Source of the DNA: Candidatus Thalassarchaeaceae archaeon
GTDB taxonomy: Archaea > Thermoplasmatota > Poseidoniia > Poseidoniales > Thalassarchaeaceae
Length of the DNA: 35,567 nucleotides
NCBI GenBank assembly: GCA_030747675.1
Contig: JASLKH010000095.1
Location: forward strand, 1 to 35,567
Reading direction: 5' to 3'
Below the pieces are notes generated by a model, which did no database searches, was not told where the DNA came from, and saw only the letters and a list, made by a program, of their open reading frames with translations. A program made the translations under genes and the position numbers. Of this stretch, positions 5,388 through 35,567 are shown in pieces (position 1 is the stretch's first letter; each line of letters begins with the position of its first letter).

Positions 5388-5406
5388 CGGCGCCCTACGG
5401 GCGCCG
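5388..5406 (-). repeat. GC-rich inverted repeat, 8-bp arms, 3-nt loop
   Basis: Arms cggcgccc (5388-5395) and gggcgccg (5399-5406) are perfectly complementary around a 3-nt loop. The hairpin begins immediately after the stop codon of the VTT membrane-protein gene and lies 27 nt before the E1 start codon, on the strand of both. No U-rich tract follows, so it is not a classical intrinsic terminator. RNA processing or stability, or a protein-binding site, is possible. Confidence 0.75.
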
Positions 5407-7185: not shown

Positions 7186-7207
7186 GGAACGGCCTTCGGC
7201 CGTTTCC
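7186..7207 (-). repeat. GC-rich inverted repeat just upstream of the REC gene start
   Basis: Core arms aacggcc (7188-7194) and ggccgtt (7198-7204) flank a 3-nt loop, and further pairing outside extends the stem with one wobble or mismatch. The element ends one base before the preferred ATG at 7184 and lies about 50 nt after the stop of the MoeB-like gene. A stable stem directly at a start codon could restrict initiation or mark a processed 5' end. Confidence 0.7.
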
Positions 7208-30623: not shown

Positions 30624-30640
30624 ACGGCCCTAAGGGCCGT
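30624..30640 (-). repeat. GC-rich inverted repeat, 7-bp arms, 3-nt loop
   Basis: Arms acggccc (30624-30630) and gggccgt (30634-30640) are perfectly complementary around TAA. It lies 27 nt after the stop of the minus-strand gene at 30667 and just upstream of the TATA-like box for the SAP gene. No U-tract follows, so ordinary intrinsic termination is not supported. Confidence 0.7.
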
Positions 30641-33935: not shown

Positions 33936-33977
33936 ATTCATGCGACTGTTTTCATACTTTGACCTTTTGGCCTCCTT

Positions 33978-34223
33978 GTGGATTGGGCACACTACTCACT
34001 TGCGCTAATCGCAGGATTCGCTCTGACACGTTTGGCCACAGAGAAGCTGAAGGTCCGTCTCAAGGGCGGTGGGTTCTGGGTGCACCATTGGATTCTTGCA
34101 GCGGTTGCGATGGTTGGGATCTACTTTACTGGCATCGAACACCCTGCCGTTTGGGGTGGATTAACTGGTGTCGCCCTTGAAGGCCTACGAAGGAAAAATT
34201 GGGGCCTAAAGCACAAAAAATGA
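33978..34223 (+). CDS. Small two-helix membrane protein
   Basis: 81 residues from GTG 33978. Two hydrophobic segments (about 6-20 and 38-66) are separated by the basic stretch TEKLKVRLKGG, and the tail is basic (RRKNWGLKHKK). No family was recognised. It lies 42 nt after the geranylgeranyl reductase gene and may belong to the same transcript. Codon choice and the clear helix pattern support a real gene, but the start is uncertain because no strong ribosome-binding site is visible. Confidence 0.65.
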   Translation: MDWAHYSLALIAGFALTRLATEKLKVRLKGGGFWVHHWILAAVAMVGIYFTGIEHPAVWGGLTGVALEGLRRKNWGLKHKK

Positions 34224-34227
34224 AAGG

Positions 34228-34244
34228 TTCCTCCTACGGAGGAA
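34228..34244 (+). promoter_or_regulatory. Hairpin pairing the Shine-Dalgarno with its complement
   Basis: Arms TTCCTCC (34228-34234) and GGAGGAA (34238-34244) pair perfectly around a TAC loop. The right arm contains GGAGG (34238-34242), positioned 7 nt before an ATG at 34250, so folding would hide this ribosome-binding site. It starts 4 nt after the stop of the small membrane-protein gene. Confidence 0.65.
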
Positions 34245-34249
34245 ACATT

Positions 34250-34279
34250 ATGGCTGCAAAGTTATCACTTGGGCCATGA
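34250..34279 (+). CDS. Possible nine-codon leader ORF (MAAKLSLGP)
   Basis: ATG 34250 has an ideally spaced GGAGG upstream and opens a nine-codon frame that ends in TGA overlapping the ATG of the large exported protein gene (ATGA). The arrangement looks like a translated leader that delivers ribosomes to the downstream start. It is too short to judge by composition; conservation in relatives would be needed to accept it as coding. Confidence 0.4.
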   Translation: MAAKLSLGP

Positions 34280-35567
34280 CCTCAACGACCGTCAACCGAA
34301 CCTTGCCGCTGGCCACCATATTGGTTGCGCTCACCATGTTCCTCGGTAGCGTGCCTAGCGTGGATATAGCAGCGCTAGCTTCTTACTCAGATACCGAAAA
34401 GGTTCAGACTGAAACATTTTACTTTGATGAAACGATTTACCATGAATCTGAGAACGAATTATTTGCATCACACAGGACATTGTTCACGACTCCGAGTATA
34501 CCTGGAAATGCTCCCTGGTATAATGCAGATGAGGCGACTTGCCTCGTAATCAAAGGATATGCACCGGTTTGGGATTGCAGAGATTTGGATGGTAGCCCTG
34601 GAGGTGCGCAAGGGCATTATCTTGAACACGATAAATACTCTTTCAATGTCGCAATGGTTTACCAATATAAAATCGAATATTCTGGTTCGGTTGAAATAGA
34701 GACTAGGACAACTTGGTCTTATGGCAGTGCTCCACAGACGACGATGACCGTTACCGATTCATCAGAAACCATGATTGTATCTGCAAAGGCATCATTACGA
34801 TTGAATCTATATCGACATTATGTTGGACCTAATGGCCATGATTATCAACTTCGCAATGAACTTCCATTCGACTATCCTGCCCTATCAACAAGCGATATTG
34901 ATGGGAGTGGAAACTCTGTTACAATAGGAGGTCAACGCTTCTACAAATGGGATCAATACAGTGTAGTTGATTCGGAATATAATCAGCAAGATGAATTGGG
35001 TTCAAAGCATACTTTAGCGGGCTCAAAAACTGTGGCGGAAATCGATTTGCTTGAATTGGCAGCAAATCGTGCCCCGAGTACGACGATTCGTTCTATCGCC
35101 ACTGCATTCAGTTATTTTCTTGAAATTAGTTTCCAAATAAACTTAAATTTGAAAACTGAAATGACCAATTACGCACAACTTTTCCTTGGCATGTCTTCAG
35201 TTCAATCAATAAGAAATAGTTTCAATCATCCAAGTCAGAAAGCCGCATATAATTGCGCATTAACTAGTTCAAATTATTGTATCAAGATGGTTTCTGGACA
35301 AGGTACTCAAATAAATGGATTTTTAGGATTTTATCATCAAATAAAAACCTCAGAATCCTATAGTGCGGATATTGTAATAGGTCCAGCAGATTCATGGGAA
35401 GCGCAATTATTGTGGTCTTTCTTCACAAATCAAGACGAATGGTCAAGAACACTCTCAGAGGGCCATTTCGCGACAGCAAGCACGGGATATCAGTTCACCG
35501 AAACATCTGAAACAATATCTATTGATTTGTCAGGATATGTACCTGCACCACCAAATAACGCCCCTAC
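34276..35567 (+). CDS. Large exported protein of unknown function, 3'-truncated
   Basis: The frame opens at ATG 34276, the first start codon after an in-frame stop at 34207, and stays open to the window edge, giving at least 430 residues. The N-terminus (MTSTTVNRTLPLATILVALT... with an AxA-like site near IAALA) is a signal peptide. The mature part is rich in Tyr, Ser, Asn and Thr, predicted beta, with a few Cys (CLVIKGYAPVWDC, YNCALTSSNYC) that may pair. The last visible residues, YVPAPPNNAPT, look like a proline-rich linker, which suggests more domains beyond the edge. I recognise no domain. It is probably a surface or secreted protein, translationally coupled to a short leader ORF. Confidence 0.85.
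   Translation, partial: MTSTTVNRTLPLATILVALTMFLGSVPSVDIAALASYSDTEKVQTETFYFDETIYHESENELFASHRTLFTTPSIPGNAPWYNADEATCLVIKGYAPVWDCRDLDGSPGGAQGHYLEHDKYSFNVAMVYQYKIEYSGSVEIETRTTWSYGSAPQTTMTVTDSSETMIVSAKASLRLNLYRHYVGPNGHDYQLRNELPFDYPALSTSDIDGSGNSVTIGGQRFYKWDQYSVVDSEYNQQDELGSKHTLAGSKTVAEIDLLELAANRAPSTTIRSIATAFSYFLEISFQINLNLKTEMTNYAQLFLGMSSVQSIRNSFNHPSQKAAYNCALTSSNYCIKMVSGQGTQINGFLGFYHQIKTSESYSADIVIGPADSWEAQLLWSFFTNQDEWSRTLSEGHFATASTGYQFTETSETISIDLSGYVPAPPNNAP

Follow-up and report, generated by a model that had tools for sequence, protein, structure and literature searches.

Does a small hairpin that encloses a Shine–Dalgarno (SD) sequence ahead of a nine-codon reading frame control the translation of the large exported protein encoded next to it, or does the palindrome belong to another kind of element altogether? 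The arrangement lies on the forward strand of the window, the 35,567-nucleotide stretch of DNA analysed here, which is one whole contig of a metagenome-assembled genome from a Marine Group II archaeon. The arms TTCCTCC (34228–34234) and GGAGGAA (34238–34244) form seven perfect pairs around the loop TAC, and the 3′ arm contains the SD sequence GGAGG (34238–34242), located seven nucleotides (AAACATT) 5′ of ATG 34250. This ATG opens the nine-codon leader (34250–34279; ATG GCT GCA AAG TTA TCA CTT GGG CCA TGA, encoding MAAKLSLGP), whose TGA overlaps the start codon of the next gene in an ATGA at 34276–34279. The pairing, the spacing and the overlap had been picked out in an earlier note on this DNA, and all three are present in the sequence. 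The hairpin (34228–34244) ends 5 nt before ATG 34250 and 31 nt before ATG 34276. The latter begins the N-terminal part, 430 aa, of the exported protein (34276–35567, forward strand), which runs off the contig end and has no Pfam match. On the other side the hairpin is preceded, at a distance of 4 nt, by the stop codon of a gene for a small membrane-type protein of 81 aa (33978–34223, forward strand), a family present in a few other genomes; genes for a polyprenyl (GGPP-type) synthase and for a geranylgeranyl reductase come before it.

The isolated stem is predicted to fold with −8.6 kcal/mol and 6 bp, the outer U-A pair being frayed, and 2 of 200 shuffled sequences fold equally well. The hairpin is kept in RNA contexts of 17–101 nt and is absent from the minimum free energy structure of a 141-nt context, in which another fold wins; in the 65- and 101-nt folds AUGGC of the leader pairs with GCCAU around the main start at 34276. 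Perfect stems with seven or more pairs and loops of 3–8 nt are not rare as such, the window harbouring 23 of them. The specific combination TTCCTCC-N3..8-GGAGGAA has a single match in the window, against none in 100 shuffles, and a single match in the genome. The distinctive character of the 34228 hairpin resides in its being GC-rich, closed by a 3-nt loop and intergenic, with a GGAGG at the N7 distance that is the usual SD spacing in this genome. One of the triggers that had been envisaged for it is melting by temperature. The stem shares with RNA thermometers of the fourU and ROSE types an SD that forms one strand of a hairpin, but it is short, perfect and G-C-rich (five of seven pairs) and carries no U-rich or non-canonical zipper. 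A scan of the window with Rfam models detected only a tRNA and no match to a thermometer model, and a thermometer is thus unlikely.

The features of this hairpin recur across the genome, and a class was defined by a perfect stem of at least 6 bp, an arm GC content of at least 57%, a 3-nt loop and an intergenic location. Its statistics come from samples of 402 kb in this genome and 400 kb in one genome of a second family (G035), analysed with a home-made gene finder whose start positions are approximate. In the 402 kb, 21 of 25 stems with at least 7 bp, at least 60% arm GC and a 3-nt loop are intergenic, in a sample of which intergenic DNA makes up about 14%; neither loops of 4, 5 or 6 nt nor AT-rich stems show a comparable excess. 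The loops TAC, GTA, TAT, ATA, TAA or TTA (TAN/NTA) are found in 24 of 34 intergenic hairpins versus 2 of 20 coding ones, and the TAN and NTA forms display no strand preference. The arms vary from site to site. Members cluster near gene starts: 14 of 29 lie within 26 nt of a possible start, a position shared by 18% of random intergenic positions. They are common in co-directional and divergent regions and absent (0/29) between convergent genes. The second-family genome follows the same pattern, with 11 of 13 stems intergenic, 8 of 19 within 26 nt of a start and a single one of the 19 in a convergent region. Summed over 17 genomes of the genus, the pattern CCCCTANGGGG has about 469 sites, against 34 for its reversed control, a 14-fold enrichment; across 311 genomes it is also enriched in g12 of the other family and close to control level in g13, g16, g5 and g11.

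The 34228 hairpin has the stem, GC content, loop and intergenic location that define this class, lies within 26 nt of a start (ATG 34250), and belongs to a class of gene-start hairpins, specific to the lineage and GC-rich, with stems of 6–8 bp or more and an A/T-rich triloop. It does not have the properties of an intrinsic terminator: the stem is followed by ACATTATGG with no T-run, and the class is all but missing from convergent regions in both samples. Conservation at an orthologous gene, which other members of the class exhibit, is not found for it.

Indeed, the whole neighbourhood is peculiar to this genome. In 14 sister species a methyltransferase gene in convergent orientation comes next after the geranylgeranyl reductase gene, V-ATPase genes follow where the contig is long enough, and none of them has an orthologous locus with the stem or the leader. 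Because the region 33936–35567 differs in all 14, the 81-aa gene and the exported-protein gene owe their place here to an insertion, or to a join at the contig end, that is specific to this genome. Across 319 genomes of the order the exported protein has five homologues, at most 48% identical and with open frames of about 1,900–2,350 aa; viral contigs contain none. Neither the stem nor the leader occurs at any of the five, and a TATA-like box precedes the ATG of each by approximately 25–30 nt. One homologue (L011) starts about 150 nt past the 3′ end of a 16S rRNA gene. The comparative check that had been proposed for the locus, compensatory changes in the stem together with a conserved leader frame, turned out negative: this instance is not conserved, and by the criterion set in the earlier note a switch at this locus gains no support from conservation. 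The combination of SD, hairpin and leader is a plausible gate and is unique to this genome.

Two explanations that would deprive the locus of its meaning can be weighed at this point. The hairpin might be a chance structure with no function, a reading to which the abundance of stems in the window and the lack of conservation of this instance lend something; yet the GC-rich subtype with a 3-nt loop is strongly intergenic and enriched, and a chance origin is most improbable. Alternatively, translation of the exported protein might really begin at ATG 34250, and the nine-codon ORF would be an artefact of a frame shifted by a one-base error or mutation near 34250–34276. Class members usually sit 0–7 nt before a real start, which points to 34250, and the end of the contig, itself assembled from a metagenome, is 1.3 kb away. 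However, a start at 34276 gives a gapless N-terminus of equal length with the closest, 48%-identical homologue (MTSTTVNRTLPLATILVALTMFLG versus MAEEFQVSINKIFPVILVVILFLG), and a frame error appears very unlikely.

If the single locus is unconserved, the SD-in-hairpin geometry that it displays is not. A search of the genus for CCTCC-N3..8-GGAGG uncovered recurrent sites with 3-nt loops. Upstream of pheS, CCTCC-TAY-GGAGG-N7-start is present in all 10 sister-species sequences examined: the arms are invariant, the loop reads TAT or TAC, the spacer nucleotides vary and the start codon is ATG, GTG or TTG. Among the pheS loci retrieved, all nine from the genus carry this hairpin and none of the 71 from other genera does. 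A membrane-protein gene, represented by eight sequences, is preceded by the invariant stem CGCCTCC-NNN-GGAGGCG with the loops TAT, ATA, TTA, TAA or AAA, and its invariant TTG start lies exactly 7 nt after the GGAGG of the hairpin arm. An SD enclosed in a hairpin at N7 spacing is conserved at both genes, and such an architecture is therefore real in the genus. In an exported-protein gene compared between two sequences (L052 and L054), TCCTCCT-TAC-AGGAGGA in one corresponds to CCCTCCT-TAC-AGGAGGG in the other, directly before the ATG. This outer pair is the one compensatory change seen within orthologous stems, and because these stems are mostly invariant, covariation is unable to prove pairing at the RNA level. 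The notion that every CCTCC-NNN-GGAGG site is an SD hairpin was rejected: one family of sites (D) lies upstream of a promoter, one site falls inside a leaderless start, and the arms of most class members contain no SD.

The proposal that the hairpin is a switch sequestering the SD thus emerges divided. Its geometry is correct, and the same SD-in-hairpin arrangement with N7 spacing recurs at pheS and at the membrane-protein gene; but at 34228 itself the relatives have neither stem nor leader, and since most members are devoid of an SD, sequestration is not the general function of the class. The reading preferred here, to which slightly less than an even chance is assigned, is that the 34228 hairpin is a class member that acts as a translational gate on read-through mRNA, ribosomes reinitiating at the ATGA. 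On a transcript that continues from the genes before it, the hairpin would hold the SD of the nine-codon ORF closed. A ribosome terminating on the 81-aa gene, whose stop codon is 4 nt upstream, would cover the 5′ arm and open the hairpin; the nine codons could then be read, and translation could resume at the exported protein's ATG, which overlaps their stop. Synthesis of the exported protein from read-through transcripts would thereby be limited.

Leader and exported gene are co-directional with an overlapping stop and start, the structural basis of termination–reinitiation coupling. In Haloferax volcanii and Escherichia coli, strict coupling was observed for 13 of the 14 tested gene pairs with an ATGA overlap (PMC6728339), and coupling requires an overlap or a very short distance, gaps of about 20 nt nearly abolishing it (PMC10666635). 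It follows that direct reinitiation from the 81-aa stop at 34250 (26 nt away) or 34276 (52 nt away) is not expected without a new SD-led initiation. The 4-nt overlap is common to the 34250–34279 leader and the archaeal systems described in these two studies (PMC6728339, PMC10666635), although the known pairs consist of full genes and the partner here is an unconserved frame of nine codons. In classical cases of SD masking the SD likewise resides within a structure, and at 34228 a terminating ribosome would reach the 5′ arm; those SDs, however, pair over a long range with the upstream coding region, whereas the present one is engaged in a local 7-bp hairpin in the gap between genes. The gate is favoured by the class enrichment, the proximity to starts, the same SD geometry at pheS, the genome's own SD spacing and the literature on ATGA coupling. 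Against it count the lack of conservation of this instance, the lack of an SD in the arms of most class members, the promoter-like elements close upstream of several members and the alternative fold in longer RNA.

The promoter-like elements bring in the main rival of the translational gate. In both sampled genomes TTSAAR motifs (TTCAAG/TTGAAG) peak at −30 to −26 of starts, and they recur before pheS (L253–L323), so that TTSAAR may be the core promoter element of this order. A conserved TCAARG motif upstream of the hairpins is only weakly enriched (6 hits). A TATA- or TTSAAR-like sequence is found close upstream of the palindrome at pheS, the membrane-protein gene, a V-ATPase gene and the exported-protein gene of L052 and L054. 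With an element that close, transcription would start inside or after the palindrome, and the hairpin may therefore be missing from the gene's own mRNA; the palindrome would then act on DNA, or on read-through RNA only. The rival sees it as a DNA element, flanked by the core promoter element and the start codon, that would influence transcription or serve as an insulator; the mRNA of the gene itself would be leaderless or nearly so, and SD and nine-codon ORF would be incidental. The near-absence of the class between convergent genes, its frequency in co-directional and divergent regions, the indifference of TAN and NTA loops to strand, the TATA or TTSAAR elements directly upstream of palindromes and the TATA-like boxes of the exported-protein homologues all speak for such an element. 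Yet the arms vary between sites, unlike the operator of a single regulator, and the exact N7 position of the GGAGG together with the ATGA overlap would go unexplained. At the locus itself, ATGAAAGG (34220–34227, forward strand), one mismatch from TTSAAR and 30 nt before ATG 34250, is a weak putative element; ATG 34276 has no good promoter element at −30, a further point against the DNA-level reading. A DNA-level role is considered somewhat unlikely.

A further reading retains the RNA hairpin and dispenses with the nine-codon coupling. In insertion sequences subject to fold-back inhibition, an inverted repeat just upstream of the start masks initiation only on long read-through transcripts. By analogy, the hairpin would block the adjacent start on such transcripts and leave a leaderless mRNA from the gene's own promoter unaffected. 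Insulation of this type fits a position right before starts irrespective of an SD, the variable arms and the absence from convergent regions. The resemblance is an analogy only, as the present class belongs to cellular archaeal genes and has variable arms, and the divergent sites have less read-through to guard against; insulation by folding back is given a small probability.

Whichever role applies at 34228, translational gating on read-through mRNA being the one favoured, the single locus is of modest interest and the class behind it matters more. Gene regulation in these abundant uncultured archaea is little known, and the class can be counted: a genome has dozens of copies, a simple rule serves to find them, and their positions are conserved at pheS among other genes. 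The chances appear even that these palindromes are an undescribed class of Marine Group II gene-start elements with free arms and a fixed, A/T-rich 3-nt loop, variable between lineages, which would insulate transcription units from one another or act as brakes between them. On this view the element is kept unchanged at some orthologous genes, comes and goes between genera and at times takes in an SD. Limited literature searches on SD sequences and promoters of Marine Group II/Poseidoniales returned no description of the class, and two papers on Marine Group II mention neither hairpins nor promoters.

Other members in the window, all on the reverse strand, illustrate this range. ACGGCCC-TTA-GGGCCGT (30624–30640) is intergenic, 53 nt before a start codon. 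CGGCGCCC-GTA-GGGCGCCG (5388–5406) directly follows a stop codon and is not conserved in sister species. Nearby, the 871-aa ORF of the same strand probably starts at TTG ~5331 rather than at ATG 5361; a GGAGG precedes this TTG by 7 nt, and the sister species have the same arrangement. AACGGCC-GAA-GGCCGTT (7188–7204) is located 3 nt before an ATG and has an identical stem in nine sister species; aligned over 10 sequences of the genus, AACGGCC-GNA-GGCCGTT is invariant in its stem. The conservation extends to ATGTTCAARGGTCGTCG just upstream of it, which may represent a promoter element or a mini-ORF. Outside the window, six sequences of an EcfT-like gene show conserved coding from an apparent ATT, 7–8 nt after the GGAGG of a hairpin arm, which makes conserved AUU initiation in archaea a possibility.
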